Shown: positions 21,287 to 64,000 of the stretch, piece after piece | Position numbering within the stretch: the stretch's first letter is position 1 | How the letters are laid out: each line of letters opens with the position of its first letter | DNA from: Liolophura sinensis | Taxonomy: Eukaryota; Mollusca; Polyplacophora; Chitonida; Chitonidae | Assembly: GCF_032854445.1 (NCBI RefSeq) | Contig: NC_088300.1 | Span: 59,682,984 to 59,746,983, forward strand | DNA: 64,000 nucleotides | Reading direction: 5' to 3' | Notes under the pieces: model-generated | Databases searched by the model: none | What the model was told of the DNA's origin: nothing | Seen by the model: the letters and a program-made list of their open reading frames with translations, nothing else | Made by a program: the position numbers and the translations under genes

Positions 21287-22276
21287 TTACACGCTATTCT
21301 GCACCGACCCTCCCACCGACGTAGTAGAGGCACTGCCCTCTTCTGTATTCTTGTGGGCCCAGTCGCTGTAACCGTCGTTGTTGGCTTCAGTACACACACA
21401 AAGGGTTCCTTTGGCTTTGTTAGAGAAGAAGAAGTACATGAGTGGATTAACGGCGCTGTTAAGATAACCCAGCGAAGTTAATGCGTAGGCAATTATGACC
21501 ATTTTAAGTGTGGTTAGGTTTTTGTTGAGGAGAACAAAATTCCAAAGTATTCCTGATGGTAAGGTAGTGATGCTAAATACCATCAAAATCCCAATTATAA
21601 CTTTGATGGACAACTGGCGACGATGTGTTCTAGTCACGGATGGGGACATGGTGGCCTTCACACGAACAGCCTTGATCACGTGAAACACCAGCATGCACAC
21701 AATAGGCAGGATTGTCATGACAACCAACAGGGTCATGGTAAATGGACGGGCGTCCAAGTTAACAAGGCAAATGTCCACCGTATTGTTTTCACTGATGTTG
21801 AACGTTGTTAAGCCTGTGAATATAACAGATGTCGTCGGGACGCCAAGTGACAATATCCAGATCACCATACACTGAATTATGATACATTTTGTAGTGACAT
21901 GCTTGGCGGCGAACAGAGGCTTTGTCAACAGGATAAACCTGAGAATGGCGAATGCCACAAGATGGTAAGTACTTGAAGTTATCGAGGCAAAAGAAGTGTA
22001 CAAAAACACTTGACAAAGTGACTTATACAAACCGCCTGTATATATAAAGTATGTATACAACGGCATACATAACAGAACAAATACATCGGATCCAGCAAGA
22101 CTCAGTAGCATTAGGTAGGTTGGAGATTCTCGTAACGCTCTCTGCCTCAAAATGGACGTCATCAAGAGCGCGTTCGCAACCAACCCGAATATGACAAAGC
22201 CAATGATTACTGTCGTTAGAAGTGGAATTAGCGTCCGCAACAGGTCAGAACTCTGTACAAACCGTTCATAACCCAT
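21287..22276 (-). CDS. Rhodopsin-like 7TM receptor A (LRF type)
   Basis: 329 residues, single exon. The start is set at 22276 because the product then begins MGYERFV, matching MGYDRFV of the neighbour at 24.9 kb. A longer ATG frame begins at 22336. Landmarks in order: GLVANALL in TM1, LSLAGSD in TM2, Cys before TM3 (LCQVFLY), AILRF in place of E/DRY at the end of TM3 followed by TKPLFAAKH, TM4 Trp, loop 2 with two N-glycosylation sequons and a Cys (VDICLVN), TM6 ITTLPS without the CWxP tryptophan, and TM7 NSAVNPLMYFFFS. The tail has CVC (possible palmitoylation) and is Ser-rich. A G-protein-coupled receptor in the plasma membrane is inferred from fold. Ligand is unknown. Closest relative here is the next gene. 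Confidence 0.9.
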   Translation of the reverse strand: MGYERFVQSSDLLRTLIPLLTTVIIGFVIFGLVANALLMTSILRQRALRESPTYLMLLSLAGSDVFVLLCMPLYTYFIYTGGLYKSLCQVFLYTSFASITSSTYHLVAFAILRFILLTKPLFAAKHVTTKCIIIQCMVIWILSLGVPTTSVIFTGLTTFNISENNTVDICLVNLDARPFTMTLLVVMTILPIVCMLVFHVIKAVRVKATMSPSVTRTHRRQLSIKVIIGILMVFSITTLPSGILWNFVLLNKNLTTLKMVIIAYALTSLGYLNSAVNPLMYFFFSNKAKGTLCVCTEANNDGYSDWAHKNTEEGSASTTSVGGSVQNSV

Positions 22277-22374
22277 TGTCGTGATTCTTTGAGGAACGAG
22301 TGTAGACGGTGAGGTGAAACAAGATATGACTGCCAATGGTTAGCCACAAACAGATGCACCCAGCTCACTGTTTC

Positions 22375-22389
22375 GTTATATATTTATGC
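22375..22389 (-). promoter_or_regulatory. TATA-like element upstream of receptor A
   Basis: GCATAAATATATAAC on the minus strand, about 100 bp before the chosen ATG. Receptor B has a TATATATATA at a similar distance, and both share a CCAYTGGCAGYCA-like block between TATA and ATG. Confidence 0.35.
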
Positions 22390-23954
22390 AGGGAGATATC
22401 AGTCATAGATTTAGACCTGCGCTGAGTGGTGCGCAATCAGCTGTACAGATGTTTATTCAAGTTTGCATCCTGAATTAATAACGCGTCAGGGATAATAGCA
22501 TGGGGCGAAATGCTCTCAGTTTTAAACGCTTTTGCCATCAACCAGTACTTAATGTATAGCAGCTTTACTTAAAACACTCTACAAACAGATGCCAAGAAAT
22601 CATGCTCAGAAAACCATCCTTCTGCAAATAAGCCTCAAATGTGTGAAAATGCTGAGAAAGACAAAAATCAAGCCCAAAATGTTTGGCTATGTAGAAGACA
22701 ATGGGTTGAACATTGTATTTTGATTTTATGACTGAGTGAGTTACAAAATCATTCATGTTTTCGGGAATTTTTTCACCTCAATTTTTTCATGATTTTTTAT
22801 TGAATTACTTAAAATTGTCTTAATTGTCTGAATTGTCTAAATGAAAGAATAGATAGCTGTTCGTAAAAATTTTAGGATTTTATTCATTTATTTATTTTTG
22901 GCGTTAACACTGTGCTAACTGTATTTGGTATGTGGTGAAAACCAGATGGACTCCTTGGAAAACCAGCACAGTTTGTCAGTTACCTGCCAAACCCTTGAAC
23001 AACGAGAGTTTGCGGTCAGTGAAGTTTTGCCAGCGGTGTCCTTCTGGTGCCCTGCTTCTTCAAGCCGAGAACTCGACTTCCGTGATATAAAAGAGCATAG
23101 GTTAAAACATCAGCGTAGAGCATGTTAATAAATCAAGACGTATTGCGCTGTATTAACCTAGAAATAAAAATAGTACACCGGATGAAATGGCTGCCCTTGT
23201 CAATCGCTGGTTTCGGTGGTTATCACCAACTACATTTTCTATAGGCTTCTTACGATTATTTAGCAACTCGTTCGTGTTTGAGGATCCTTTCGCATGCTTT
23301 AATATGCGCCACGTATTTTACATTACTTTTGTACGTATCCAGATATGTGCATCGAAGTCTGCAAGGTGATTGTTTGCTGATGATATAGTTCATGAAACAT
23401 GCCTTTTCTGAAACAGGCAACGAACTCCGTAACCACTTAATAGTTCCCATCCCCCACCGCTTTAGGCTATTACAATACACAGCACTCTAACACGTAACCT
23501 TGCACGGTTATCATTTTTCATTTATTATCATTTCTTGTGGTTACACCACGTCGGTTGGTTTCACACCATTCATTTCGTCTGCATCAGGCTTGACGTTCAT
23601 ACACAAAATCCAGACGATTATACACACTAATTCAGCACGATTTTTCTCTGCATTTAAAGAAGTCATTGAAATAAGAAAATGGGAAACTTCTAATACAGAC
23701 TTCAACCTCCTGCTTGAACAGGAATTTTGGGGTAGATATTAGTAGTGTTGAGATTTCTAGATTTCTTTACCAGCTTTTTGAAAAAGTAAAGATATGAGTG
23801 TGTTGTTCATTAGATGATCTAACCATCTGAGAAAAAAAGAAACTCAATATTCTTGTTAGAATTACATATATATTGGCTAAAATGAAAAGTCCAGGTGTCC
23901 CAAATTTTAGAAGAAATAGGGTAGGTAATATTTTTTTCCGTTTAAGCTAATTTT
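22390..23954. other. No gene seen
   Basis: Intergenic DNA between receptors A and B, with no receptor remnant recognised on either strand. Confidence 0.4.
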
Positions 23955-24941
23955 TCACACACAAGCAGATTTTGGTCCTGATCGAGTCACAGATTTAGCA
24001 CAACCTGTTTGACGTTCAGCAATTTTAGACACCACTATAGGCGCTTTAGGTTTGTGGTTACAACAAATAATCGTTTTCGCTTGCTGTGAAAAAAAGAAAT
24101 ACATCAATGGGTTGATGGCGCTGTTGAGGTAGTTTAACAGCGTTAAGATGTAGGCTATTATGACTAATTTTATCGTGGCTATGTCAGGATTCATCAGTAT
24201 AATTGTCCAAAATATCCCAGACGGTAATGAGCTGACAGCAAAAGCCATAATGATCCCAATTACAACCTTCATAGAAACTTGTCGACGTCGTGTTCCAGTC
24301 AGAGATGAAAGAGTGTTCTTCTTTACCTGGAAAAATTTGACGGTGTGAAACACTGCCAGGAACATAATCGGAACAATTGTTAGTACTATAAGTAAAAACG
24401 CGGAAAATGGTTTGGCGTCAAAGTTTACAAGACAGATGCCAACCGTGTGGTTTTTGCTGACGTTGAAGGTTGTTACGCCCGTGAAGAAAACTGAAGAAAC
24501 CGGAATACCGAGTGAGAAGGCCCAGATAAGCACACATGTCATTATTGTTGATTTTGTTGTGATGTACTTGGTGGCTGACAAAGGCTTCGTTAGCATCAGG
24601 TATCTCATAACGGCGAAGGCGACTAGGTGGTATGTACTTAAGGTAACGGAAGCCAAATCGAAATAGAGAAATATTTGGCACAGGGCTTTGTAAATGCCTC
24701 CAGTGTACAGAAAGTAGACAAAAAGCGGCTTGCATCCAAGCACGAGGGTATCTGATCCAGCCAGGCTCAGTAACATGAGGTAGGTGGGCGATACTCTCAG
24801 AGTTACCTTGCGTAGAATAGACACTATCAGCAGAATGTTGGCGGCCAACCCCAAGGTGGTTATGGCAATGGTGAAAACAGCAGATGTAGGGATGAGAATT
24901 CGCAACATATCCGAGTTTTCAACAAATCTATCGTATCCCAT
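23955..24941 (-). CDS. Rhodopsin-like 7TM receptor B (MRY type)
   Basis: 328 residues, single exon, start MGYDRFV. Same layout as receptor A: GLAANILL in TM1, LSLAGSD in TM2, Cys in ALCQIF before TM3, AVMRYLMLTKPLSATK in place of the E/DRY segment, loop-2 sequons and Cys (VGICLVN), TM6 VSSLPS (no CWxP tryptophan), and TM7 NSAINPLMYFFFS. The cytoplasmic tail has CC (ICCNHK) and basic residues. It is more like A than any other member, so the two form one sub-group. GPCR function is inferred from fold only. Confidence 0.9.
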   Translation of the reverse strand: MGYDRFVENSDMLRILIPTSAVFTIAITTLGLAANILLIVSILRKVTLRVSPTYLMLLSLAGSDTLVLGCKPLFVYFLYTGGIYKALCQIFLYFDLASVTLSTYHLVAFAVMRYLMLTKPLSATKYITTKSTIMTCVLIWAFSLGIPVSSVFFTGVTTFNVSKNHTVGICLVNFDAKPFSAFLLIVLTIVPIMFLAVFHTVKFFQVKKNTLSSLTGTRRRQVSMKVVIGIIMAFAVSSLPSGIFWTIILMNPDIATIKLVIIAYILTLLNYLNSAINPLMYFFFSQQAKTIICCNHKPKAPIVVSKIAERQTGCAKSVTRSGPKSACV

Positions 24942-25037: not shown

Positions 25038-25039
25038 GA

Positions 25040-26624: not shown

Positions 26625-27536
26625 CTAAGGCGTTACCTTCCAGCATGAAACTACGCGGAGACATTTACCCTGATTAGAGAAGAAAAAATACAAGAGAGGA
26701 TCAGTCACGCTGTTGATAAACGTGAACGATGTAAGAGAGTACACACCAATGACAGTCTCTAGGTCAGGATCCTTGTCGCTGTTCAGCACAATAAACCAGC
26801 CAATTCCTGCCGGGATTGTGGAGAGAGTGAAAGATATTACAATACCCAGAATCACACTGGTGGCGACATGGCGGCGGTTTTCTGTGTTCGTCAACACCTG
26901 TGTTGATCTTTGAAGTTTACATGCCTTGGTAACGTGGAATGATATTACCAGAATGCACGGAAAAAGTCCAATTAGACCAAACGTGGTAATGAGGTAGGGG
27001 TTAGACGAAGTGTTGACAACACACAGAGAAACAGTGTGATTGCTGAAACTTGAGGTAAACTGTCGAAGGCCGGTAATGGGAATAGCCAGTGCACTTACAC
27101 AAAGGGTAAACAACCATACAGACACGCACGCCACGGCAATCGACTTCACTGTCACATATTTGACAGCACATAAAGGTTTGATCAAAATGATGTAACGTAA
27201 TATGGAGAATAATACAAGGTGATAGGTGCTTATTCCTTGAGAAGCGAAAATACCATATAAGAGTAAGGTACAGTAAAAATCATCAATGTTCGCCGTGTAA
27301 AAGACGTACAAGAAATATGGCAGAAAAAGTAAAACTGCAAAATCTGCAGCCCCCAAACTGGCCAGTGTAAGATATGTGGGTGAGGTTCTTAGCTCGGAAC
27401 GGCGAAGAATTGAGGTAATTAATAACACGTTTGCCCCTAATCCAAATAACCCAATGCAAGCGAAGACAACAATAACACTTTTGACCAAAATGTCCCCTAT
27501 GTGACGAGAAAAACCAGGCAAAGTTATGTGTTCCAT
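26625..27536 (-). CDS. Rhodopsin-like 7TM receptor C (LRY, DPxxY)
   Basis: 303 residues, single exon, beginning MEHITLPGF. TM1 has GLGANVLL, TM2 ASLGAADFAVLL, a Cys before TM3 (FYCTLL), ISTYHLVLFSILRYIILIKPL at the TM3 end, loop-2 sequon and Cys (NHTVSLCVVN), TM5 GLFPCILVISFHVTKACKL, TM6 LSTIPA and TM7 NSVTDPLLYFFFS. The TM7 Asn of NPxxY is Asp. The tail is very short (about 15 residues), so few arrestin or kinase sites remain. It is intermediate between the A/B pair and the group further right. Confidence 0.9.
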   Translation of the reverse strand: MEHITLPGFSRHIGDILVKSVIVVFACIGLFGLGANVLLITSILRRSELRTSPTYLTLASLGAADFAVLLFLPYFLYVFYTANIDDFYCTLLLYGIFASQGISTYHLVLFSILRYIILIKPLCAVKYVTVKSIAVACVSVWLFTLCVSALAIPITGLRQFTSSFSNHTVSLCVVNTSSNPYLITTFGLIGLFPCILVISFHVTKACKLQRSTQVLTNTENRRHVATSVILGIVISFTLSTIPAGIGWFIVLNSDKDPDLETVIGVYSLTSFTFINSVTDPLLYFFFSNQGKCLRVVSCWKVTP

Positions 27537-30617: not shown

Positions 30618-31559
30618 TCAGCAGACGTTTTCATTTACCTTACCAACGTTGGAAACTCTTTGTTGTGGGCGGGTCTGACAGTTACCACCATCCCCAAGTC
30701 GTCGGCAACACCAAATATCATTACGAACACGATCAGAGAAGAAAAAGTAAAACAGGGGATTAATCGCATGGTTAAGATAACCCCAAGCTGAAAACAGGTA
30801 TGCAAAGGAAAGCATGTCCAAAGAGAGTTCCTGTACTAGAGAGAGGCTCATCCAGTAGATGCTTGGTGGAATTGAGTTCACGAAGAAAGCTATCAGTATA
30901 CCAGCGACCACTTTGATTGAGACTTGTATCCCTGGCATCTCTTCAAGCTGCGCAGAACGCCGACGCAGTTGATACACTTTGGCCACGTGGAATATTATCA
31001 TGGTTGTCATGGGAATAAATCCAATGACGGTCAACATACAAAACAAATAGCCCAGAGAGGAAGGCTCAATCATACATATTGAAATGGTGGAATTGTAACT
31101 GGAGTTATATGAAACGACGCCTACTTCAAACGCGGAATACACGGCCAATGTTACATTCACAGCCCAAATCACCCCACACATCATAATGGTAGTCCTAACA
31201 TTGAGGTGTCTCATGGAGAACAATGGTTTGACAAGAATAATGTATCGTAAAACAGAAAACGCCATCAAGTGATGAGCGCTGGAACTTACAGCCAACTGTG
31301 TCGTGTACATAAATAACGAACAGAAGATAGAATACACTCTTTCAGTATACACCATCTCTATAAAGAATCCAGAGAAAAGTAAGGCAAGAAAATCAGATAT
31401 GGCCAAACTGACGAGAGTAACATAGGTGGGAGAACGCCGGAGATTGGGCTGACGTAAGACGGAGTAAATCAGCAAGGCGTTAGCGACTAGACCAAAAGCC
31501 GCCACAGCTCCAGAGAGAACAGTAACAAGGGTCACTATCGCGCGGACAAGCGTTGACAT
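30618..31559 (-). CDS. Rhodopsin-like 7TM receptor D (LRY, NPxxY)
   Basis: 313 residues from the first ATG at 31559 (MSTLVRAIV); the frame is open a little further but only from a GTG. TM1 GLVANALLIYSVL, loop 1 RQPNLRRSPTYVTLVSLA, TM2 ISD, Cys before TM3 (IFCSLF), SAHHLMAFSVLRYIILVKPL, loop-2 sequons (NSS, NST) and Cys, TM5 GFIPMTTMIIFHVAKVYQL, TM6 VNSIPPSIYW, TM7 NHAINPLFYFFFS, and a tail with WCC and basic residues. It is the first member of the right-hand group that shares the near-identical TM1-loop 1 coding stretch. Confidence 0.9.
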   Translation of the reverse strand: MSTLVRAIVTLVTVLSGAVAAFGLVANALLIYSVLRQPNLRRSPTYVTLVSLAISDFLALLFSGFFIEMVYTERVYSIFCSLFMYTTQLAVSSSAHHLMAFSVLRYIILVKPLFSMRHLNVRTTIMMCGVIWAVNVTLAVYSAFEVGVVSYNSSYNSTISICMIEPSSLGYLFCMLTVIGFIPMTTMIIFHVAKVYQLRRRSAQLEEMPGIQVSIKVVAGILIAFFVNSIPPSIYWMSLSLVQELSLDMLSFAYLFSAWGYLNHAINPLFYFFFSDRVRNDIWCCRRLGDGGNCQTRPQQRVSNVGKVNENVC

Positions 31560-35717: not shown

Positions 35718-36655
35718 TCATAAACCATGAGTTTTATTACGTGAGTCTTGACTGTTGATATCTGTCAAGCTGCTTATGTTTTTAATCTCAGTATTAGCCA
35801 ACTTTCCATCATCGCAAAGTCGAAGGCAACAGAAAATACCCACCCGTGCACGCGTGAAGAAGACAAAGTAAAACAGTGGATACACAGCAAAGTTTATTTT
35901 GCTGATATCGGACAGTATGTATCCGAGGGCATACCTAATGATATGTCCGGTATCGTCAGTGGAATCGACCAAAATACCACCTTGGGAAGGGAAATCACTG
36001 CGAAGGTCGTCAATACACTAACGGTAATTTTCGCTGAAACATGGCGTCATTTAGCGTCTTTGGATTCAACTGTAGACTTGTGCAGTTGCCCAAATCTTTA
36101 CTATATGAAACCCAGCCATAGCCGTCATGGGGGAAAATGCCATTAGAATTCCTGCAGAGATCATACATATCGTTGAAGTAGCCCGTTTCATTGGTTGTTG
36201 TGTTGAAGGATGCCAGATGCGCAATCATGAGAAATGGGCAACTGATTGTCAAGGCCAAAGCATATTACTGCGCTGGTTTTAGTTGTCAGATATTTCATTC
36301 TAAAGAGCGGTTTGACGAGGATAATATATCCTAATACAGAAAAAGCCATAAGATTGTAAGTGCTGGTGCAGAGTGCAGCCGTTCCAGTGTAGACAAGTGG
36401 CAAGCACAAAGCACGATTTGGTTCCGAGGTGTATAGAAAACCCATAAACAGGAGTCCTCTTCCCAGTCCGAAAACGTCTGAGGCGGCCAGACGCACCAGG
36501 ATCAAGTAAGAGGGCGAGTGTTGGGGACGGAACTGACGTAGAACGGAATAAATGTTAGCCACCAAACCACAGGTTATGGTGCAGAGGACGGAAACCTGAG
36601 CGATAAATAAGACAGATCCCGAGTAAGAATCAGCAAAAGGGTCCGTTAATCTCAT
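35718..36655 (-). pseudogene. 7TM receptor E, frameshifted pseudogene
   Basis: TM1 to TM4 are in one frame (start MRLTDPF at 36655), with a three-residue in-frame loss in TM1 (GLVANIYSVL where others have GLVANALLIYSVL) and SVLGYIILVKPL, so the TM3 Arg is Gly. After TM4 the frame shifts, and the ECL2-TM5 part (SFNTTTNETGY) is read in a second frame. TM5 then continues in another frame (FHIVKIW). TM7 and the tail (INFAVYPLFYFVFF, GIFCCLRLCDDG) lie in a separate frame. The NPxxY Asn is Tyr. Several independent frameshifts make this a dead copy of the right-hand receptor group. Confidence 0.85.
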
Positions 36656-37680: not shown

Positions 37681-38850
37681 TCACATTTGTGTCACCTTAA
37701 CATGATATGGGCTCGAGCTGACACTAAGTGACTTATCTTCCTGCTGTTTCTCAGAACTCACCAGACCATTGTTTTTTGCTGATATCTTTTCACGTGGAGA
37801 TTGATGTCCCAAAACCTGCTCTAATGAATGATCGTTCTTGATAATTGCCGGATTGTTACCTGGTGTCACATTTATTGGCATTTGTCGCTCGTCGAAACCA
37901 TTTCGACAACAACATATGTCTTTCCGAATGCGTTTAGAAAAATAAAAGTAAAACAGTGGATCTACCGCACTGTTTATGTTACACAAACCAAACAAAATTG
38001 CTGGTACTGTATATTTTTGTAGAGCATCGTCCTCCGTTTCCAAGTTGTAAGAAATAATCCAGTAAATACAACCTGGAACGTTCGTAACCCAAAAAGTTAT
38101 CAATATGCTGATGACAATTTTGGACGAAATATGGCGTCCGTTACCGTGCTGTAGACGCCTGCGCAGGTGGCAAACTTTGCTCAGATGGAATCCCATTGTC
38201 AAAACCATGGGAAGAAACACCATTGAAGTCACCGTAGAAATCGCGTGGGCGTTAGAACTACTTTCCTCAATACATATGGAGGAGCTGGAATTTTGGGTTG
38301 TGTTCAGAGGAACAACACGACTGAAAAAAGCTGACGGCAAACTTAGAATCCCAGCCACAATCCATACAACTATACAAACGAGAACGCTGGTTTTCACAGT
38401 CAAGTGTTTCATGGCGAACAGCGGTTTGACCAAAATAATGTACCGTAACACGGAAAAAGTCATGAGATGATAGGTGCTCGAAGAAATTCCTACACTCACT
38501 GAAAAACAAATAAAAGCACAGAAATATCGGTTAGACTGCAATGTGTAAAAATTCCAGAAATTTAATAATCCGGTTAGTAGCGAGAAAATGTCCGATACGG
38601 CCAAACTGACGAGAGTCAGGTAGGTCGGGGAACGCCGGAGACTGGGCAGACGTAAGACGGAGTAAATGAGCAAGGCGTTAGCCAGAAAACCGCAGACGAC
38701 AACACAAGTAAGTAAAGCATACACAGCGATGAATGTTATACCTGGGCCAGACTTCCCACCTAGATCCAAGTGCGCCATCAATGAGTGATCCGATACTGAT
38801 CCGAAGTCTATACAGTTTCTGTCAGTCGTTTCCCCTATAGAGCCGTACAT
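37681..38850 (-). CDS. Rhodopsin-like 7TM receptor F with long tail (LRY, DPxxY)
   Basis: 389 residues, the longest member. The N-terminus has about 35 residues before TM1 (MYGSIGETTD...). TM1 CGFLANALLIYSVL, loop 1 RLPSLRRSPTYLTLVSLA, TM2 VSD, Cys before TM3 (YFCAFI), SSTYHLMTFSVLRYIILVKPLF, loop-2 sequons (NTT, NSS) with Cys, TM6 VTNVPGCIYW, TM7 NSAVDPLFYFYFS, then CCC and a hydrophilic tail of about 80 residues rich in Ser, Lys and Glu. That tail is unlike the 15-40 residue tails of its neighbours and offers phosphorylation sites. Single exon. Confidence 0.92.
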   Translation of the reverse strand: MYGSIGETTDRNCIDFGSVSDHSLMAHLDLGGKSGPGITFIAVYALLTCVVVCGFLANALLIYSVLRLPSLRRSPTYLTLVSLAVSDIFSLLTGLLNFWNFYTLQSNRYFCAFICFSVSVGISSSTYHLMTFSVLRYIILVKPLFAMKHLTVKTSVLVCIVVWIVAGILSLPSAFFSRVVPLNTTQNSSSSICIEESSSNAHAISTVTSMVFLPMVLTMGFHLSKVCHLRRRLQHGNGRHISSKIVISILITFWVTNVPGCIYWIISYNLETEDDALQKYTVPAILFGLCNINSAVDPLFYFYFSKRIRKDICCCRNGFDERQMPINVTPGNNPAIIKNDHSLEQVLGHQSPREKISAKNNGLVSSEKQQEDKSLSVSSSPYHVKVTQM

Positions 38851-39749: not shown

Positions 39750-39835
39750 CAGCGTTTTATCGTTTCTCGAAAACATTTCGACAACATACATGTTTCCTAA
39801 TGCGTTCAGAAAGGTAAATGTATAACCATGGTCCC
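39750..39835 (-). pseudogene. Short C-terminal fragment of an F-like 7TM receptor
   Basis: On the minus strand the end of TM7/start of the tail reads SERIRKHVCC. It aligns with SKRIRKDICC of receptor F, including nucleotide matches around GCATTAGGAAA and TGTCGAAATG. The rest of the gene is missing on both sides. I infer a truncated duplicate. Confidence 0.6.
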
Positions 39836-40127
39836 ACCAGTTCATATATGAGGATATTTAGTTAAAATTTCCATGCGTTAAATTACCTACATTATGGCCT
39901 GGAAATTTGGAATTGTGTGACACTGAATAAAGCCCGCATGCTAGGCCTACTAGCGGTTTATAGATCATGTAACATGTATGATCGCAGATCATGTATAAAG
40001 ATGATATCTGCATACAGTCATAATCATGATTTATGTATTTATTTACGTGACATATTCCTAAGAGAACAGATGGCAGACGGAGAATACATTTCGTACGCAT
40101 CGGAATATTTATATTCTATTAACTTTC

Positions 40128-46649: not shown

Positions 46650-47063
46650 TGTTTCTGATCAAGGCACTGCACTCCAGCGCCTTTACCTGTCTTTACATCC
46701 ATGATTCTGATATCTGGGATTCACATAGCCAAAGTGTGTCAACTCCGTAGGCGTTGCTTTCTACAGAAAGAAAACCATGGAAACCAGGTTGAAATTTAAC
46801 TTGTGATAAGCATCCCAATATCATTAGCTGTTACCTCCGTTCCCCACAGTATATTTTCTGCAGTTGTCCTTTGGGAAGATAACGTGTCCGTCAAGGAGAT
46901 TGCTGTTAACATCGTGCTGGGATGATTTACCTACTTTAACCACGCCATCAGCCCGTTTTTCTACTTCTTCTTTTCCTATCGTCTTAGAGGAAATGTCTGG
47001 TGCTATGGACGACTTTGTTCTGAGACGCCGTCGCCACGACCTCAACGAGCTATCACGCATTGA
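46650..47063 (+). pseudogene. 7TM receptor pseudogene, TM5-TM7 remnant, plus strand
   Basis: Reading in frame on the plus strand: SMILISGIHIAKVCQLRRR (TM5 and loop 3, missing about eight residues compared with receptor I), a stop after QVEI, then ISLAVTSVPHSI (TM6), a stop after NIVLG, then FTYFNHAISPFFYFFFSYRL (TM7; NPxxY is SPFFY) and a tail ending at 47063. It aligns throughout with receptor I, which begins only about 530 bp further on. TM1-TM4 were not recognised. Two in-frame stops and deletions make it non-functional. Confidence 0.8.
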
Positions 47064-47594: not shown

Positions 47595-48569
47595 ATGATG
47601 TATATACTGCGTTTTAACCACTCCGTCATGGGAAATGTCCTTATCTTTACCTCTGTAGCAGTAATGTTTCTGTCAGTATTTGGGTTGGTGGCCAATGGAC
47701 TAATGATTTACTCCGTCTTGCGTCAACCCAGTCTGCGGCGTTCTCCTACCTATGTAACCCTCGTCAGTTTGGCCACATCAGACAGCTTTTCGCTGATAAC
47801 ATCATCGGTGTTGCTCACAATGCTCTATACGACAGGACCAAGCCAATTGTCCTGCACGTTGTTTATGTATACAGGGGTTACTGCTGTCTGTTCTTGTGCT
47901 CATCATCTAACAGCGTTTTCTGTGTTACGATACATGGTTTTGGTGAAACCTGTCTTCTCATTGAAGCACCTCACTAAGACGAAAACTGTCATGATCGCCT
48001 GTGCGCTGATATGGATGGAATCTTTGGCTGTCGGTTCATTTGTCGTTCCTAATGTTGAAATGATGTTATTCAATGTAACTAACAACACAACAGTGTCGCT
48101 ATGTTCGCTCACGCACAGTGCATGGCCATTTTTTGTGTCCATGGTAGTCCTTGTTGGATTTATTCCGATGGCTTTGGTAGCCTTTTTCCACATAGCCAAA
48201 GTGTGTCAACTGAGAAAACGCATTGTCAGACCACTGGAAAGTCAAGGAAGTCAGGTATCAATAAAAGTTGTGGTGGGAATTCTTATATCATTGGGAGTTA
48301 CGTCCCTTCCTAACTGGATATATTGGCTATGTTATATGCACACGAATGAATTGTCACTGGATATGTTAGCACTGGGATATGTTCTAGGATCCTTCACCTA
48401 CATGAACAATGCCATAGACCCGTTGCTTTACTTTTTCTTTTCGAACCGTCTTCGGAGAAACGTTTGTTGTTGCCGGTGTCAATATGGTGATGTCAATCTC
48501 CCAGATACTGAATTAACTGATAAATCTCACTACAAAAATAACCATCCTCAAAACCAGCGACCTGTTTGA
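47595..48569 (+). CDS. Rhodopsin-like 7TM receptor I (LRY, DPxxY), plus strand
   Basis: 324 residues from ATG 47595 (MMYILRFNHS); a second ATG follows directly and an upstream GTG is not used. It is the only intact member on the plus strand. GLVANGLMIYSVL, loop 1 RQPSLRRSPTYVTLVSLATSD, Cys before TM3 (LSCTLF), AHHLTAFSVLRYMVLVKPV, loop-2 sequons (NVT, NNT, NTT) and Cys (VSLCSL), FHIAKVCQLRKR, TM6 VTSLPNWIYW, TM7 NNAIDPLLYFFFS, CCCRC in the tail. Related broken copies lie just upstream (46.7 kb) and at the right edge (63.65 kb), defining a plus-strand sub-family. A minisatellite starts about 140 bp after the stop. Confidence 0.92.
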   Translation: MMYILRFNHSVMGNVLIFTSVAVMFLSVFGLVANGLMIYSVLRQPSLRRSPTYVTLVSLATSDSFSLITSSVLLTMLYTTGPSQLSCTLFMYTGVTAVCSCAHHLTAFSVLRYMVLVKPVFSLKHLTKTKTVMIACALIWMESLAVGSFVVPNVEMMLFNVTNNTTVSLCSLTHSAWPFFVSMVVLVGFIPMALVAFFHIAKVCQLRKRIVRPLESQGSQVSIKVVVGILISLGVTSLPNWIYWLCYMHTNELSLDMLALGYVLGSFTYMNNAIDPLLYFFFSNRLRRNVCCCRCQYGDVNLPDTELTDKSHYKNNHPQNQRPV

Positions 48570-48707: not shown

Positions 48708-50134
48708 AATGTCCCAGTTGTGTAATGCCCAAGTTGTATAATGCCCCAGCTATGCTATATTTCAGTTGTGCAATGCCTCAGTTGTGCAATGCCTCAGTTA
48801 TGTAATGTCCCAGTTTTGTGATGCCCCAGTTGTGTAATGCCTCAGTTGTGTAATGCCCCAGTTGTATAATGCCCCAGCTATGTTATACTTCAGTTGTGCA
48901 ATGCCTCAGTCGTGCAATGCCTCAGTTATGTAATGTCCCAGTTTTGTGATGTCCCAGTTGTGTAATGCCCCAGTTGTGTAATGCCTCAGTTGTATAATGC
49001 CCCAGTTGTGTAATGCCCCAGTTGTATAATGCCACAGTTGTGTAATGCCCCAGTTGTGTAATGCCCCAGTTGTATAATTCCCCAGTTGTGTAATGCCCCA
49101 GTTGTGTGATGCCCCAGTTGTGTGATGGCCCAGTTGTGTAATGTCCCAGTTGTGTAATGCCTCATTTATGTAATGTCCCAGTTATGTGATGGCCCACTTG
49201 CGTAATGCCCAAGTTGTATAATGCCCCAGTTTTATAATGCCCCAGTTGTGTAATGCCCCAGCTGTGTGATGCCTCAGTTATATAATGTCCCAGTTATGTG
49301 AAGGCCCAGTTGTGTAATGCCCCAGTTGTGTAATGCCCCAGTTGTGTAATGCCCCAGCTGTGTGATGCCTCAGTTATATAATGTCCCAGTTATGTGATGG
49401 CCCAGTTGTGTAATGCCCCAGTTTTATAATGCCCCAGTTGTGTAATGCCCCAGTTGTGTAATGCCTCATTTATGTAATGTCCCAGTTATGTGATGGCCCA
49501 CTCGTGTAATGCCACAGTTGTGTAATGCCCCAGTTGTATAATGCCCCAGTTGTGTAATGCCCCAGTTGTGTGATGCCTCAGTTATATAATGTCCCAGTTA
49601 TGTGATGGCCCAGTTGTGTAATGCCTCAGTTGTGTAATGCCTCATTTATGTAATGTCCTAGTTTTGTGATGCCCCAGTTGTGTAACGCCCCAGTTGTATA
49701 ATGCCCCAGTTGTATAATGGCCCAGTTGTGTAATGCCCCAGTTGTGTGAAGCCCCAGTTGTGTGATGGCCCAGTTGTGTAATGTCTCAGTTGTGTAATGC
49801 TCATTTATGTAATGTCCCAGTTATGTGATGGCCCACTTGTGTAATGCCCCAGTTGTGTAATGCCCCAGTTGTATAATGCCCCAGTTGTGTAATGCCCCAG
49901 TTGTGTAATGCCCCAGTTGTATAATGCCCCAGTTGTGTGATGCCTCAGTTATATAATGTCCCAGTTATGTGATGCCTCAGTTATATAATGTCCCGGTTGT
50001 GTAATGCCTCATTTATGTAATGTCCTAGTTTTGTGATGCCCCAGTTGTGTAATGTCCCAGTTGTGTAATGCCTCATTTATGTAATGTCCTAGTTTTGTGA
50101 TGCCCCAGTTGTCTAATGCCCCAGTTGTGTAATG
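48708..50134. repeat. Minisatellite, about 89 copies of a 16-bp unit
   Basis: The consensus plus-strand unit is CCCCAGTTGTGTAATG. Variants (CCTCAGTTATATAATG, GCCCAGTTATGTGATG, CCCCAGTTTTGTGATG) recur in the same order several times, which indicates a higher-order structure of several units. Almost no length variation occurs within units; a few are one base short. There are no spacers, so it is not a CRISPR array. Confidence 0.98.
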
Positions 50135-52997: not shown

Positions 52998-53069
52998 ATT
53001 TAGTGCTCACTTATTGCTAAGCGTCGCATTTAACACTGTTTGACTGGGATCACAGTCATCACAACAATA

Positions 53070-53334
53070 TTTTTGATTTTTTGATTGGTGTTTTACGCCG
53101 TACTCAAGAATATTTCACTTATACGACGGCGGCCAGCATTATGGTAGGTGGAAACCGGGCACAGCCCGGGGAAAACCCACGACCATCCGCAGGTTGCTGG
53201 CAGACCTTCCCACGTACGGCCGGAGAGGAAACCAGCATGAGCTGGACTTGAACTCACAGCGACCGCATTGGTGAGAGACTCCTGGGTCATTACGCTGCGC
53301 TAGCGCGCTAATCAACTGAGCCAAGGAGGCCCCT
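53070..53334 (-). mobile_element. Full-length tRNA-derived SINE
   Basis: Complete minus-strand copy from GATTGGTGTTTTACGCCGTA to the head (GCTAGCGCGCTAATCAACTG, GGAGGCCCC). A-box and B-box regions are present. An 11-bp target duplication TCACAAYAATA lies at 53059-53069 and 53335-53345, with one mismatch. Confidence 0.95.
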
Positions 53335-53460
53335 TCACAATAATACCAAGTAATCGAGGTACTTCACTTATATGTATCTACGTAACCTTTTCGCCCTGCG
53401 TAGAATGGCAAGATTGTCACTCAATACTTAAAGTATATAGAAGCGTGTCTTTGTTTTCTT

Positions 53461-54425
53461 TCAGGAACGACATCGTGTGTTTCGCCGTAGAGTATATACA
53501 TTTATGCTAAAAAAATGACTTCGATTCCCTTGGGACTTGTGGTGCATTATCCTTGTTACTTCGAGAACTGGAATTATGAATAAAAACATACCAAAAAGAA
53601 TAAAATGTGGGAGGCAAGTAACAACAAACGTTGTCCAAATACTGGCAATGATTCTAACAGACACTTGCTTGGTGCGACATCCATCATTTGACTTGACAAT
53701 ACGGTTACGTAGCTGACACTCCATAGCTATATGGAATGCTGGAATAATGGTTATTGGGTTAAAAATCCAGTTTTTTACTATGAATGCCACCAGCCATTGA
53801 GTTGATAAGAGCGTATTAAAGATATATATTGGTATTGTAGAGTTGAAACTCGTGTTGAAAAACAGCATTCTTAACTGAAGGATTAGCGGTAAACTGAAAT
53901 TCAGAGCAATGGTCCATATTATAACGCAAGTAATCATGGGGATTTTACCGGCCAAATGCTTCATTGCGACTAATGGCTTGACTAAGATACAGAATAGGAT
54001 CAGTAGGCGACTTGTCCAGTAAACAACGATAATAGGGAAGTTTCGAGTTCGAGCTTTCATCGCTGTAAAAATGTCTGTCGAGAATCTTAGGCAACTGTCT
54101 CTTAGCGAAGACGAAAATTGAGGAGCTGAATATTTGCAAACTTGCAAGTTCCCAAAAAGGGAAGAGGTGTCACTCCTGCCTCTGGGACAAAGTGGGACAG
54201 GTGATCGGTAAATTATTGGCAACAAAAGTTGCCTCACATTTTTCTTCAAAAAATTTTATGGAGCCTTACTGTTTAAACAAGCCATTTTGTTTATCTCTCT
54301 CTTTCGAAACTGGGCTGGTGTAAGACGGAGTAAATCAGCAAGGCGTTAGTCACCAAACCAAATAATGAGGTTGTAGTTGTCACTACATAAACTACGATTA
54401 AAAGAGTGGAAAGCTGAAACTGGCA
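53461..54425 (-). pseudogene. 7TM receptor J, broken copy of G/K
   Basis: TM4-TM6 are close to receptors G and K (SFNSTIPIYIFN, PITIIPAFHIAMECQLRNR, RTKQVSVRIIASI, VVTCLPHFI). The TM3 end reads ILFCILVKPL, so the LRY arginine is lost. TM7 is absent. About 300 bp of unrelated sequence (54.0-54.29 kb) replaces TM2-TM3. The TM1 remnant (GLVTNALLIYSVL) lies at 54310-54420, with a one-base loss near the start shifting the frame. The open frame through the middle is a chance survivor. Non-functional. Confidence 0.87.
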
Positions 54426-55920: not shown

Positions 55921-55968
55921 TGTACTATTTATTTACTATCGTGACTTTTTATCTACTTCATCAAAATT

Positions 55969-56590
55969 TTGTATGCACATGGTCCAGAATTGAAAAAGTA
56001 TGTCTTTAACTTACCCGAATTACCAGATATTATATGTTTGCAGGAGACCTTTCTCAATGAGCCTTATCAGTTCAAGCTGTCCGAATTCACGGCAGTTAGG
56101 AAGGATCGGGAAGGCCGAGGGGGTGGCCTGCTTACATTAATCCGAGATAATGTCTCGTACTCTGAAATTAAGTTGCCTAATGTAACCTCATTTGAATGTC
56201 AATGTGTGTGTTTAGCTCTTAAGTTTGGTAAGTGTGTTAATGTTATAAACATTTACAACCCTTGCTTAATTGATAACGGACTAACAACTGTGTTGGAGTC
56301 TGTAAGTTGACCAAAAGTTATTTGTGGTGACTTTAATGCTCATAATCGCATATGGGGTAGTGTTGATTCTGATGTAAATGTAGAATTGTTCCAGATTTTA
56401 TTGATACGAATGGTTTTGTTTTTTTGAATACTGGCGCGCGGACACGAATTGATATTCGTACTGGTAATATATCATGCCTGCATCTTACATTTTGTTCTGC
56501 TAATATAAGTGCTGGCTTTTCTTGGTCTGTGGATCAGCTGTCACCTTGTGCCAGCGACCATTATCTCGTGCATGTTCGCATTGGTAAGCC
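55969..56590 (+). pseudogene. LINE endonuclease domain, frameshifted
   Basis: Motifs in order: IICLQETFL, GRGGGLLTLIRDNV, VINIYNP, then, after a stop at 56310, VICGDFNAHNRIWGS in the continuing sequence. Finally SDHYLVHVRIG follows in another frame. These are the catalytic Glu, Asp-Phe-Asn and Ser-Asp-His motifs of the AP-endonuclease-like domain. Confidence 0.88.
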
Positions 56591-56899
56591 GTTATGTAAC
56601 AACTCCACTGGTAGGCTATCAAGATGGAAAACTGAAGATGCAGACTGGAGCTCTTTTAAGCATTCAGTAAGCAAAGTTTCGGAAACTGATGTACTTAGTG
56701 AAAATTTGGATGAGTTTAATGATGCAGTTTTAGGTTACATTTCCAGAGCTGCCGAAAGCAGTATGCCGAAATCATCAGGAAGACCTTGCCCAAAACCTCC
56801 TGTACCCTGGTGGAATGAAGAATGTGAGGAAGCCATCAAAGCTCGCAAGAAAGCTAAAAACAGTGCAAAACGTACACTACTCCTGGCCTGGGGTAAAGC

Positions 56900-57960
56900 G
56901 ATTGTGGCGCCTGTTCTCAAGCCCGGAAGCCCCCATCTAATCCATTATCGTATAGACCCATCTCACTCACCAGTAATTTCTGTAAATTGATGGAGCGTAT
57001 GGTCAATGCTCGCCTAAGGTGGCATCTTGAAAGTAAAGGCCTTCTTTCCTCATTACAGAGTGGGTTTAGACGTAACCGACAGACAACAAAACATGTTGTT
57101 AGGCTAGAATTTGATATTAAGAATGGGTTGTTAAATAAGGAATATCTTTTAGCAGTTTTTTTAGATGTCGAGAAGGCGTACGATATGGTGTGGAGAAGAG
57201 GGGTGCTGAAGAAAATGGCAGACATGGGTTTGGGGGAAAGATATTGGCATGGCTGAGAAAGTTTTTGTCTAATACACAAATATCTGTTCGTGTAGGTAAA
57301 GAATTTTCAGACCCTATTACTACGGAGAATGGTACCCCTCAGGGAAGTGTCATTTTACCGTTATTGTTCAATGTCATGATAAATGATCTTCCTAGTGTTG
57401 TTCATCCTTAAACTAAATGTGGTCTTTTTGCAGATGACAAAGCCGTATGGGCATCGTCCAAAAGTTTTAAACTGGCTCATAAGTACCTCCAAAAGAGCCT
57501 AAACTCTATTTTTCTCTGGGGGAAAAAGTGGGGGTTTAAATTTTCTCCTGTTAAATCCAAAGGTATGATATTTACTCGTAAACGCATAATTTCGAACTCT
57601 CCACTTGTGTTGGGTAATGATGCCATAAAAATATCACCTGCATTTAAGTGCTTAGGAGTGTGGTTAGACAAGTTTCTGACCTGGTCTAACCATATTGATC
57701 AAATAGTTGTTAAATGTACTAAGGCCTTTTATTTAATGCGATCCATTTCTGGAACTTATCACCTGCATTTAAGTGCTTAGGAGTGTGGTTAGACAAGTTT
57801 CTGACCTGGTCTAACCATATTGATCAAATAGTTGTTAAATGTACTAAGGCCTTTTATTTAATGCGATCCATTTCTGGAACTTCATTGGGTGGGGGGGGGG
57901 GGGGGAGCGGGCAGATAAAACCTCTTTATTGATGTTATACACGGCTCTAATTCTGTCAAG
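56900..57960 (+). pseudogene. LINE reverse transcriptase, frameshifted
   Basis: VAPVLKPGS, SYRPISLTS (after a shift), LLSSLQSGFRRNRQTT, AVFLDVEKAYDMVW, GTPQGSVILPLLFNVMIND and GLFADDKAVW are the ordered RT motifs, and the FADD active site is still intact. Between the connector after the endonuclease and the first RT motif a large segment is missing. Frameshifts lie near 56.94 and 57.24 kb; a stop near 57.41 kb interrupts the frame. Confidence 0.9.
57633..57882 (+). repeat. Exact 125-bp tandem duplication inside the LINE
   Basis: 57633-57757 and 57758-57882 are identical as read, each starting ATCACCTGCATTTAAG and ending TCTGGAACTT. The length is not a multiple of three. A 15-base G run starts eight bases after the second copy. 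Confidence 0.95.
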
Positions 57961-57969
57961 ACTGGATTG

Positions 57970-58375
57970 TTGCTTTTTTAAAACTATTTTCGGATGCATC
58001 AAAGTGCCCAGAGATAGGGAAGTGTGGTATTGGGTTTTCAGTACCGGATATAAAATTATGCCAATCATTTCGAAAGTCTGATAAATTGTCGGTCTTCACA
58101 TGTGAGTTATTAGCAATCCTCTGTTCTTTACACTGGCTTGAGGAATATAGACCAGTGAGGGCTGTGATTTTTTCTGATTTACTTGCTGCATTGCAGACAG
58201 TTAAGAATTACTCTTGGCAAACTGTATTTCCTGTGATTTTGGAGCTTTTATGGTTGATAACCTCGTTGTACTTTCAGGGGATAGAGGTTTGTTTGGCATG
58301 GGTACCAGCCCACGTGGGAATAGCGGGTAATGAAGAAGCGGACTAGGTTGCAAAACAAGCGCACCTGCTGAATAA
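57970..58375 (+). pseudogene. LINE RNase H domain
   Basis: FSDASKCPEIGKCGIGFSVP, FTCELLAILCSLHWLE, AVIFSDLLAALQTV and LAWVPAHVGIAGNEEAD supply the ordered acidic motifs (D, E, D, D) of RNase H. An in-frame TAG follows the last motif. Confidence 0.87.
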
Positions 58376-58735
58376 TATTTCTGTTTCTTACACGTTATCA
58401 TGTCGAGAGATGTTAAGTGTGGCGTGCATCATCCTTTTTCAGGGCTTGGAAAACGCCAAGTTTATAATCTCACTCACTCTCTCCTCACTTGGCGTTTATC
58501 TTGATAGTGCAACGACTGGTTGACCCGTATCAGTATAATGGCTTGGGTGGGGAGGCTTACTTGCCTTCGGTTAGGCGTCTCAGTGATGCAGCACTAGATA
58601 AAAGAACAGTGGAAATCCGTCATGCAAAAAGGAGGCATGTTGCATGCAATCTAAGGATTATCCCGTTGTCATATGACTGAAAAATTGTTAAGTACGACGT
58701 CGTGCGTCGTGCACGTCATAAACCCCAAGCACTCA

Positions 58736-61200: not shown

Positions 61201-62166
61201 TTATCGGGAATTATCCCTGTTTGGTTCTTCAAATCCCCTAACATCTCTCAGTTCTACTGCTTCGGTGGTTTGTCCCCGGTTTCCAAAGCACTGAATACTT
61301 TTCCGGACATTTTCAGAATAGAAAAAGTAAAATAGTGGATCCAGACAGCTATTAATGAAGCAAAAGGCAGTGAAAACATATCCCAGAGCAAACATTTCCG
61401 GAGTGGGACTGGTGCTATTTATGAAGAGAGCCCAGTAGATCACACTCGGAAGGCATGTAACAACAAACGTCCAAAAAATACTGATAATGACTCTAACAGA
61501 AACTTGCTTGGTGCGACATTCGTTGTTTGACTGGACAGGACGGTTACGTAGTTGGCACACCTTAGCCACATGGAACGCCGGGATGATGATTATTGGGAGA
61601 AATCCAGCTGTTGTCATGGATGCCACCAGCCAGGGAGTTGAAGAAGACGGATTAAAGACACATATTGGCACTGTTGAGTTGAAACTTGTGTTGAAAAAGA
61701 GCATTCTTACCTGAAGTGCTGATGGTATACTGAATGTAAGGTTAATGGTCCATATTATAGCACAAATGACCATGCTGGTTTTACCGGTCAAATACTCCTT
61801 AGCGAATAAAGGTTTGACTAAGATGATGTACCTTAATATGGAAAATCCCACAAGATGGTAAGAAATGGAACTCTGGGCGGCTTGTCCAGTAAACATTAGT
61901 AATTGGCACAATGGTTGACAGAGTCCTAATGTATAAACAAACCATTCGAACACTAAGAGCGAGAGAAGACAAGAAGAGTCAAACAGGGCCAAACTGACGA
62001 GACTCACGTAGGTGGGGGAACGCCGGAGACTGGACTGACGTAAGATGGAGTAAATCAGCAGGACGTTAGCCACCAAACCAAACAATGAGGCTGTAGTAAC
62101 CACTACATAAACTCCGATTAAAAGAGAGGAAAGTGGAGAACTGGCGAAGATTCTTAAAAGTCCCAT
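61201..62166 (-). CDS. Rhodopsin-like 7TM receptor K (LRY, DPxxY)
   Basis: 321 residues from ATG 62166 (MGLLRIFASS), chosen because it aligns with the start of receptor G; a longer ATG frame opens at 62274 in sequence that is non-coding in G. It is collinear with G: N34, LF-D63 in TM2, C87, LRY 111-113, W139, loop-2 sequons and C169, TCLP 237-240, and DPLFY 276-280 followed by FFYS. The tail is longer than that of G (about 30 residues, acidic and Arg-rich, GFEEPNRDNSR). Single exon. It is the youngest duplicate pair with G; whether both are expressed cannot be seen. Confidence 0.93.
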   Translation of the reverse strand: MGLLRIFASSPLSSLLIGVYVVVTTASLFGLVANVLLIYSILRQSSLRRSPTYVSLVSLALFDSSCLLSLLVFEWFVYTLGLCQPLCQLLMFTGQAAQSSISYHLVGFSILRYIILVKPLFAKEYLTGKTSMVICAIIWTINLTFSIPSALQVRMLFFNTSFNSTVPICVFNPSSSTPWLVASMTTAGFLPIIIIPAFHVAKVCQLRNRPVQSNNECRTKQVSVRVIISIFWTFVVTCLPSVIYWALFINSTSPTPEMFALGYVFTAFCFINSCLDPLFYFFYSENVRKSIQCFGNRGQTTEAVELRDVRGFEEPNRDNSR

Positions 62167-62689
62167 CCTTCTGCTCTGCTTGGAATAATTCCAGTGTGAG
62201 ACCCGTTTAATACTTGTCCCATCCTTTCTCTTGCTCCCAAGATACTGTTTCCAGGTATCAGGAGAGAATGTCATAAAGATTCTTTCTATAGCGTTTGCAT
62301 GTACGTTCTGCCCTTGGGTTAGAATAATGTCTGATTATTGGACAGGTGTCAGCGAGAATTAACCCTACTCTAAGAAAGGAGTAAAGCCTGTTCGCCTAAT
62401 TGTACTTCCAGGCGTGTTACTTTGTCAAGATCAAAGCCCCCTGGCGTTATATCAAAGGTGACTATTATCTTTGACCTAATCTTCCATATAAACTAGACAC
62501 ACCGGAAGCAAACTTTCTTTTCATGTGACAAAGGTTCTAATAGTCTTACTCAATTAAAGAGCTTTATATTCAGTTTGATGACAATATGGAGCAGACGATT
62601 CGAACGAGAATGTACTTTCGTCACATTTCCTTTGATGTGAAGTGAATGTAGGTATCCATATTTTCTCTCTTTCGAATTATTTACTTAGC

Positions 62690-62800
62690 AGAGGAAGCCA
62701 GCATGAGCTGGACTGGAACACACAGACCGTATTGGTGAGATGCTCCTGGTTCATCGTGCTGCCATAGCACACAAACCACTAGGCCATGGACGCCACCTTT
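62690..62800 (-). mobile_element. SINE tRNA-head fragment
   Basis: Minus strand: GAGGAAGCCAGCATGAGCTG, GGAACACACAGACCG (B-box area), CGTGCTGCCATAGCACACAA and CATGGACGCC. Only the promoter half remains. Confidence 0.8.
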
Positions 62801-63019
62801 TTTGCAGTTGATATCACCAGAGATTAAAAAGAAAAACATTTTTATGATTCTGTTATGATTTAGCCTCTTGTAAATATTCACCGATATTGATAGACAGCTG
62901 GTGAACCATAAAGAGGGTTTACAACCAACGTAAATGATGTAACCGTTTTCAAGACAAGCATGAACAGTAATTTTTAAATAATACCTACACATTAAGGTTG
63001 GTGGTTTCCCATGATAGAA

Positions 63020-63115
63020 AAATTATCAAGAGTTTTAGTAATTAGGAAAACTGCCTGATAATCCAAAAAATTATCAAGAGTTTTAGTAATTAGGAAAACT
63101 GCCTGATAATCCAAA
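63020..63115. repeat. Two tandem copies of a 48-bp near-palindromic unit
   Basis: 63020-63067 and 63068-63115. Each contains TTATCA / AGTTTT / TAATTA / AAAACT / TGATAA, which pair as nested inverted repeats around the TAATTA centre. Confidence 0.85.
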
Positions 63116-63650
63116 CACTATATTAAAAGACATTTCAATTCAATAGTCCATGAATTTTACATGTACTCGAAAGCAATTGCTCTATGTTCCAGTACGTACC
63201 ACACTGTGGGATCTTTTTGTGATGTCAGTACGATAAGCCGGATTAATATGAACGTATGTGAAATTCACGGGTTTGGAAATTACAGCTGAGTCGCAGTGTT
63301 ATTCAGATAGGTTAAAAGTACTATAAGCAAATTTGATTTTTAAACAAAATACTATACATGACATCACTTAGCAGAGGGTTTTAGACCGTGCAGAATTTTA
63401 CAGTTAAATTTTTTTATCCATGTATGTTCGTTGGTTATGCCTGTCTATCTAGTCCCCCAGGCGTAAACTTATCTACAATCACGCCAACACTGACCGCCTC
63501 CATATTTACACAGATCGCAAGTTTTGATAACTCACTAAGTGCTGTTTAAACAGAACGACTGCTTTCTAAATCCAAAGATTTCTGATCTAACTAATACACT
63601 GATGCCCGGTGCCAAGAATAGAACTTTGATACTTGAGTAACGAGTGAATT

Positions 63651-64000
63651 ATGATGCATGTACTGCGTATTAACTTCTCCGATATGGGACATATTATCTT
63701 TGCTACTGGAGCACTGGTGTTTCCTTCTAGTCTAGTTGTACGCATCATTATATCCTTTGGCATTTCTACCCTTCCTCATGCTATATATTGGCATATATAT
63801 ATATATACCGACGAATGAATTCACACTATATATGCTTGGAAAACTGCCACTATTGCCTGTGTGCTGATATTGATGGAATCTCTGGGTTTCAGATCACTTG
63901 TCATTCCTCATGTTGGAATAAATTTCTTTACCGGAAATGAAAACAGAACGATATCATTATGCTCGCTTATACCTAATGCATTTCCATTTTTTGTACCCCT
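63651..64000 (+). pseudogene. Scrambled 7TM receptor copy, runs off the window
   Basis: It starts like receptor I (MMHVLRINFSDMGHIIF) but, after about 30 codons, jumps to TM6 (RIIISFGISTLPHAIYW) and an AT-expanded loop 3 (TNEFTLYMLG, shifted frame). It then jumps back to TM4-loop 2-TM5 (TATIACVLILMESLGF, NENRTISLCSLIPNAFPFFV). TM1-TM3 are missing and the order is rearranged, so it is non-functional as read. The window ends before its 3' end. Confidence 0.85.

Follow-up and report, generated by a model that had tools for sequence, protein, structure and literature searches.

A stretch of 64,000 nucleotides from the genome of the chiton Liolophura sinensis (the window; contig NC_088300.1, here C6, positions 59682984-59746983) was analysed. 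Between its positions 21287 and 64000 lie nine open reading frames (ORFs) of 303-389 codons for single-exon class A G-protein-coupled receptors (GPCRs), named R1 to R9 in order of position. The array in the window is the largest among several local clusters that belong to a single 24-member class A GPCR family. The family-wide traits are a non-acidic residue at position 3.49, the place of the acid in the E/D-R-Y motif, and a histidine at position 5.58. D/E3.49, Tyr5.58 and Trp6.48 are textbook switches of class A activation, and they have mainly been studied by mutating receptors that possess them. The best explanation, to which we give about an even chance, is that these proteins couple to G proteins, probably serve chemosensation and use a rearranged activation switch.

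Switch and core residues of the window receptors

The generic numbering of the nine proteins was set through profile alignment to somatostatin receptor 2 (SSTR2). Position 3.49 is Leu in eight receptors and Met in one, and an acid in none, in agreement with a first sequence-only reading of the window that had reported LRY, LRF or MRY at the E/D-R-Y site. N1.50, D2.50, C3.25, W4.50, P6.50 and the Tyr of transmembrane helix (TM) 7, Y7.53, are kept in 9/9 as that reading stated; so are R3.50, P5.50, N7.45 and P7.50. The TM6 motif had been given as S/T/N-x-P without tryptophan. The loss of Trp6.48 holds in all nine; the residue list does not, as 6.48 is Ser in four receptors, Thr in two, Asn in one and Cys in two. 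Position 7.49 is Asn in four and Asp in five, and no acid occurs at 6.30 (R, R, R, I, R, K, A, S and K).

The strongest feature of the window receptors is His5.58, which was overlooked by the sequence-only reading. It is present in all nine, at a position occupied by Tyr in most class A receptors. All nine likewise share His3.42 and Trp6.55, overlooked as well, together with Phe3.46, Phe5.57 and Lys5.61; Trp6.55 is located seven residues (two helix turns) above the missing 6.48 toggle.

Family members across the genome

The searched assembly comprises 609 Mb in 632 contigs, and 147 of 1077 candidates from a search with the Pfam profile 7tm_1 were scored. Full-length family loci numbered 24 on four contigs, and the same set was obtained with R7, L021 or the distant L027 as the query. 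On C6, besides the nine in the window, four are located at 25.19-25.21 Mb, three at 33.15-33.16 Mb and one at 58.49 Mb. Contig C7 carries three at 32.25 Mb and one at 32.82 Mb, C8 two at 9.49-9.50 Mb, and C13 one at 6.97 Mb. All 24 read as single exons and 23 look intact; L024, with a stop inside at intracellular loop (ICL) 2, is broken but is counted among the 24, and the stop of L029 comes after its CC tail. Broken family pieces were also found in the genome. The best open match beyond the 24 is L075 (DRF; 63 bits).

Position 3.49 in the 24 members is Leu in 19, Phe in three, Tyr in one and Met in one, with no acid. His5.58, Arg3.50 and Tyr7.53 are present in 24/24, and His3.42 in 20/24. No member has an acid at 6.30, versus all eight control loci (L001-L008). 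Exceptions at core sites in the wider family are S5.50 in L023 and L029, and L6.50 in L030. The comparison set comprised 27 class A rows of this genome from outside the family: the eight best 7tm_1 loci and the rows nearest to R7 and L021, including some near-copies and six partial rows (L071, L072, L078 and L080-L082). In these rows, 3.49 is Asp in 16, Glu in 10 and Leu in one (D/E in 26/27), and 5.58 is Tyr in 25, Ser in one, Asn in one and His in none. An aligned set of 19 outside rows gave D/E at 3.49 in 18. The residue table is without L088 (too short), and the window fragments L028, L033 and L037 are outside the alignment.

Trp6.48 is kept in four members (L023, L027, L032 and L034), replaced by Tyr in eight and by other residues in twelve. 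Among the 26 outside rows with a letter at this position, 15 have Trp and 11 lack it. The loss of Trp6.48 is therefore neither family-wide nor special, and the earlier proposal that the missing CWxP tryptophan is a hallmark of the family has to be dropped.

Two trees were reconstructed. The 45-row tree was built without the fragments L035, L036, L038, L071, L072, L078, L080, L081, L082 and L088; ten chosen outside rows (L004, L006, L007, L069, L070, L073, L077, L079, L083 and L085) were additionally removed for the 35-row tree. The 24 members formed one side of a branch with support of 100/98 and 100/99, respectively. The window's nine formed their own clade in the same trees (100/98 and 99/98), and therefore the array grew locally. 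The earlier proposal of a real tandem receptor family is supported, and the observation behind it gains strength from His5.58 and the genome-wide members; its interpretation holds in part. The closest pair in the window is R6/R9, with 76% identity over the core and a synonymous divergence (dS) of 0.33.

Two other class A arrays were observed in the same genome. Five 7tm_1 ORFs of 400 codons with near-equal scores are spaced about 38 kb apart at C6:49.56-49.72 Mb. The second array, at C12:20.94-21.27 Mb, has twelve 7tm_1 ORFs that are 349-387 codons long.

Class membership and nearest ligand-defined receptors

All nine ORFs matched Pfam 7tm_1 over profile positions 2-260 of 260 (E 8.4e-18 to 1.4e-27), and their N1.50, D2.50, R3.50, W4.50, P5.50, P6.50 and P7.50 are those of rhodopsin-like class A receptors. 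The structural model of R7 and its fold match agree with this class.

Profiles of the nine (E 3.1e-23) and of 22 members (E 1.5e-30; the family alignment without L024 and L029) best matched the somatostatin, opioid, nociceptin and galanin receptors. The best PDB relatives of single members varied at 43-60 bits: the kappa-opioid receptor and 5-HT2B for R1, SSTR2 for R6, and the apelin receptor followed by HCAR for R8. L076, a true SSTR-like receptor of the same genome, scored 274 bits to SSTR2. Peptide receptors, tied in Z, make up most of the 50 PDB rows listed for the R7 model, and the absence of a receptor from this list excludes nothing. Many of its top rows are receptors in G-protein complexes, and no reading of the activation state was drawn from them; AlphaFold favours the states that are common in the PDB. 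In the 45-row tree the family fell on the side of L076 and apart from the aminergic-like rows (88/90). The 35-row tree no longer grouped L076 closer to the family than those rows, and this grouping is not firm.

Several memberships were rejected. Aminergic receptors are defined by Asp3.32 together with DRY and CWxP; Asp3.32 occurs in 1/24 members and Asp3.49 in 0/24. The control loci have Asp3.32, DRY and CWxP in 8/8, and are called aminergic-like by those residues alone. Receptors of the somatostatin, opioid and galanin type have D/E3.49, and Asp3.32 is common to the somatostatin and opioid receptors. Membership in this group was rejected on the same two positions (no acid at 3.49 in the 24) and on the best match, which is not the same for the three members that were queried one by one and reaches 43-60 bits versus 274 for L076. 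The nematode srw chemoreceptors were rejected since the profile 7TM_GPCR_Srw matched only 3/9, with scores well under the 83-97 bits that 7tm_1 reached in those proteins; two of the three matches exceeded its cut-off (25.2 and 26.6 versus 22.2).

No amine or neuropeptide orthology was found among the PDB sequences or in the class A trees of the same genome, which fits the earlier statement that the receptors could not be matched to a ligand-defined family. The profile of the nine gave 94 pattern matches in prokaryote contigs and 222 in viral contigs, none of them confirmed, and little was expected there. No description of the family was found in the literature listings and text passages covered, and no paper was returned for 'LRY motif' with GPCR.

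Selective constraint

The ratio of nonsynonymous to synonymous divergence (dN/dS) was 0.11-0.41 in 15 of the 36 window pairs; synonymous divergence was too large to estimate in the other 21. The nine frames have stayed open despite this saturation, and therefore they are not chance ORFs. Tree-wide parsimony gave a dN/dS of 0.50 for the window's nine and 0.45-0.64 for the 24. These values, which come from this gene family alone, do not show that it is fast-evolving.

Purifying selection was detected on the 24-row tree at 5.58 (three synonymous and no other changes, P 0.0014) and at 3.50 (12 synonymous and no nonsynonymous changes, P 1.3e-5). At 6.48 constraint was not detectable (P 0.09 or 0.2). 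In the window's nine, the extracellular helix halves are more variable than the intracellular halves (1.73 versus 1.00 bits), and none of 20000 permutations gave a difference as large. The 28 pocket positions average 1.82 bits versus 0.48 for the 21 G-protein-side positions, both sets being our own choice, based on class A numbering.

L084 and a tentative order of the changes

Only one of the 27 outside rows has Leu3.49. This is L084 (C8:50952324-50953346), which reads LRA at the DRY site, keeps Tyr5.58 and Trp6.48, and has Arg at 7.49. It joined the family as its sister with support of 98/92 and 98/95 in the two trees. Its branch is the longest in both (2.5 and 2.6), and long-branch attraction is possible; its best PDB match is CCR1 (51 bits). 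If L084 is a sister with this combination of residues, the order of change would be 3.49, then 5.58, then 6.48, and L084 might be an intermediate; this order is tentative.

A fuller reading joins these steps. The acid at 3.49 would have been lost first (a loss kept in the putative sister L084), followed by the invariant His5.58 as a titratable partner of Arg3.50. The Trp6.48 toggle would have been dropped last in most members, and Trp6.55 would have been fixed in the window clade. Taken as a whole, this reading is rather improbable. If such a lineage with a rearranged switch is real, its receptors could be natural, stably inherited chemoreceptors with high basal activity or pH sensitivity.

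Proposed mechanism and alternative explanations

In the proposed mechanism, the variable extracellular pocket would take up a range of ligands, small molecules or peptides, and the receptors would signal through G proteins via the conserved intracellular core (R3.50, P7.50 and Y7.53). Because R3.50 finds no acid at 3.49, and none at 6.30 for the ionic lock, the resting state would be held otherwise, possibly by hydrophobic packing (L, M, F or Y at 3.49) or by another contact. His5.58 would replace Tyr5.58 as the active-state partner of R3.50. In the window's nine, a small polar residue stands in place of the Trp6.48 toggle, two turns below the invariant Trp6.55. Going by other clustered class A arrays that are specific to one lineage, the receptors would most likely serve to sense external chemical cues. 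A chemosensory role had been raised as a possibility by the sequence-only reading, and is judged plausible because of the tandem single-exon arrays, the pocket diversity and the parallels in Aplysia, Biomphalaria, echinoderms and amphioxus. The data show the sequences, the family and its constraint, with an Arg3.50 core; G-protein coupling, a chemosensory role and an altered basal tone are what we infer for the family.

The altered basal activity or coupling suggested by the sequence-only reading is a possibility, and the effect on basal activity might go either way. According to PMC3414077, 66% of class A receptors carry Asp3.49 and 96% carry Arg3.50, and on activation Arg3.50 releases the acid and can touch Tyr5.58. 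According to the same paper, Val at 3.49 makes CXCR2 constitutively active; restoring the acid in a viral VRY receptor had no major effect (PMC3414077). The chiton receptors may have high basal activity, or a family without the acid may have compensated.

Several points speak against a chemosensory family with a rearranged switch. With 24 members, the family would make a small olfactory repertoire, and 6.48, 6.55 and 7.49 vary within the family. The site test for 3.49 on the 24 hinges on parsimony tie-breaking (P 0.001 or 0.2), and on the window's nine it is not significant (P 0.77). The 27 comparison rows are a non-random sample of the receptors in this genome. Moreover, class A paralogues commonly combine variable pockets with a conserved cytoplasmic side, irrespective of their ligand.

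The family might instead consist of receptors for neuropeptides or hormones that arose from somatostatin/opioid/galanin-like class A receptors by lineage-specific expansion and act inside the body, for example in nervous or reproductive tissue. This is doubtful but deserves serious attention, since both family profiles, the peptide receptors in the R7 fold list and the position on the side of L076 in the 45-row tree all point this way, and the small number of members leaves room for it. The planarian ophis, a member of a chemoreceptor family, acts in the gonad (PMC4862687). However, the best match changes from member to member at scores far below that of L076, the grouping with L076 is lost in the 35-row tree, and Asp3.32 is found in a single member. 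Peptide receptors with a single ligand are also seldom arranged in tandem arrays with broken copies.

Two to three activation residues were lost together, which could also suggest scavengers or decoys that do not signal, or that act through arrestin only, having given up the activation of G proteins along with the DRY acid and Tyr5.58. This is unlikely, as R3.50 is kept in 24/24 under the purifying selection described above and the G-protein-side positions are the more conserved ones. The non-signalling C5L2, D6 and DARC lack a positive charge at 3.50 (PMC3414077), unlike the present family. The four broken copies and a scrap among the nine genes, and the lack of detectable constraint at 6.48, might also indicate a decaying array whose motif losses reflect relaxed constraint. 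This explanation is largely refuted and very improbable: nine frames are open, dN/dS is 0.11-0.41 in the 15 pairs and 0.45-0.64 across the 24, His5.58 and Arg3.50 are under purifying selection, and the altered residues are also kept at the other family loci on C6, C7, C8 and C13.

Whichever ligands the receptors bind, a natural family that keeps Arg3.50, with the 3.49 acid and Tyr5.58 replaced in 24/24 and Trp6.48 retained in four, is a ready-made experiment. The paralogues that differ at 6.48 and 6.55, together with L084, could show which residues serve quiet rest, agonist response and the choice of G protein. If the family is sensory, it adds a chemoreceptor candidate for this animal.

Receptor genes and other features of the window

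Eight of the nine receptor ORFs are on the minus strand. R1 (21287-22276) encodes 329 amino acids (aa) with LRF, H5.58, T6.48 and W6.55; R2 (23955-24941) encodes 328 aa with MRY, H5.58 and S6.48. LRY and H5.58 are shared by all the others: R3 (26625-27536; 303 aa; T6.48, D7.49), R4 (30618-31559; 313 aa; S6.48), R5 (37681-38850; 389 aa; N6.48, D7.49), R6 (40820-41737; 305 aa; C6.48, D7.49), R7 (44164-45123; 319 aa; S6.48), whose structure was modelled, R9 (61201-62274; 357 aa; C6.48, D7.49), and R8 (47595-48569; 324 aa; S6.48, D7.49), which alone is on the plus strand. The probable start of R5 and of R9 is an internal Met common to all nine, 24 and 36 codons downstream, respectively.

Searches by tblastn with the nine proteins, and with their profile, revealed four broken copies and one scrap, so the earlier count of nine intact genes, four broken ones and a C-terminal scrap is matched by the ORF, tblastn and profile results. 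The copy at about 35739-36655 (-) is in pieces in two frames with several stops, and has Gly at 3.50 in its open part. The copy at about 46692-47003 (+) covers TM5-TM7 only, with two internal stops. The copy at about 53581-54422 (-), closest to R6/R9, consists of a TM1 piece and a TM3-TM6 piece in different frames. The copy at 63648-64000 (+), nearest to R8, extends to the window end with its pieces out of order: a TM6 piece precedes a piece from TM4 to extracellular loop 2, and an N-terminus-like start was judged by eye. The C-terminal scrap is at 39760-39849 (-; E 2e-4 in one search and 0.0025 in another). The sequence at 63474-63556 repeats the region upstream of R8 with 73% identity, and belongs to the stretch of the rearranged copy (63474-64000, +). 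No convincing shared word was found in the 1200 bases upstream of the nine genes.

Upstream of the array are, side by side, exon pieces of two i-type lysozyme-like genes (Pfam Destabilase) at 8899-9751 (+) and 15618-16636 (+). One exon of the second best matches PDB 8bbu (105 bits), a leech protein. An open stretch at 209-1585 (-) has four C2H2-like patterns, none above the Pfam cut-off; the last two resemble the C-terminal pair of Ikaros/hunchback-type proteins. Outside the receptors there are 31 ORFs of at least 95 codons. Pfam scans covered 13 ORFs, and nine non-receptor ORFs in one batch of ten had no match at E 0.01. Rfam at the gathering threshold and a tRNA scan gave no match in the window.

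Repeats are also present. An interspersed repeat has ten copies in the window (e.g., 53060-53340), with a 25-base core at no more than two mismatches, of which 0.00 are expected by chance. A 25-base word of this repeat had no exact match in the prokaryote or viral contigs, and six of its pieces occurred in no paper. A minisatellite with 89 copies of a 16-base unit (48708-50134) begins about 140 bases past the R8 stop. A broken retrotransposon without long terminal repeats (non-LTR) at 55945-58520 (+) has an RNase H piece above the Pfam cut-off, with endonuclease and reverse transcriptase pieces below it, and a perfect 125-base internal tandem duplication (57632-57882).

Comparison with known chemosensory and other receptors

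The AcCR subfamilies a-c of Aplysia, candidate chemosensory receptors described in PMC2700072, are class A, clustered, mostly single-exon and lineage-specific, with Arg3.50 kept and proteins of 319-433 aa; in these features they are likened to the window family. AcCRa and AcCRb have an ERC motif, in which the acid is kept and the Tyr is changed (PMC2700072), whereas in the window receptors the acid is replaced and the Tyr or Phe is kept; for AcCRc the paper's section gives no TM3 motif. Membership in these two subfamilies was rejected, as their TM3/ICL2 signature there is FITAFITFERCLCIA or WITAFVTFERCLCIA versus [LM]R[YF]..L.KP in 9/9 window receptors (PMC2700072). The candidate chemosensory receptors of Biomphalaria are also clustered GPCR-like genes, with 14 on one scaffold and tentacle expression of one (PMC5440852).

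The odorant receptors of vertebrates and amphioxus share single-exon arrays with the window's nine, and their ICL1/TM2 motif P.Y.....L...D is present in 9/9. Odorant receptors also lack Trp6.48, as the nine do. Vertebrate-type odorant receptors were nevertheless rejected: the motifs L..P.Y.....L...D........P, M....Y...C.PL.Y and K...T...H were each found in full in 0/9, and Pfam 7tm_4 had no match in the nine at E up to 10. Each motif occurs in part of the odorant receptors only, and vertebrate members usually keep MAYDRY (PMC2764704), whereas the window receptors have no acid at 3.49.

By profile, no receptors of solved structure come closer to the family than the somatostatin, opioid and galanin receptors; by fold they rank among the closest, with 15-20% identity to R7 in structural alignments. 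The family differs from them in Asp3.32 (1/24), in Asp3.49 and Tyr5.58 (0/24 each), and in the separate SSTR-like L076 in the genome. The virus-encoded chemokine receptors with VRY, IRY or NRY are working receptors with a non-acidic 3.49 and Arg3.50 (PMC3414077), a combination also found in this family. Those are viral and isolated cases, whereas the present family is chromosomal and has His5.58 as well.

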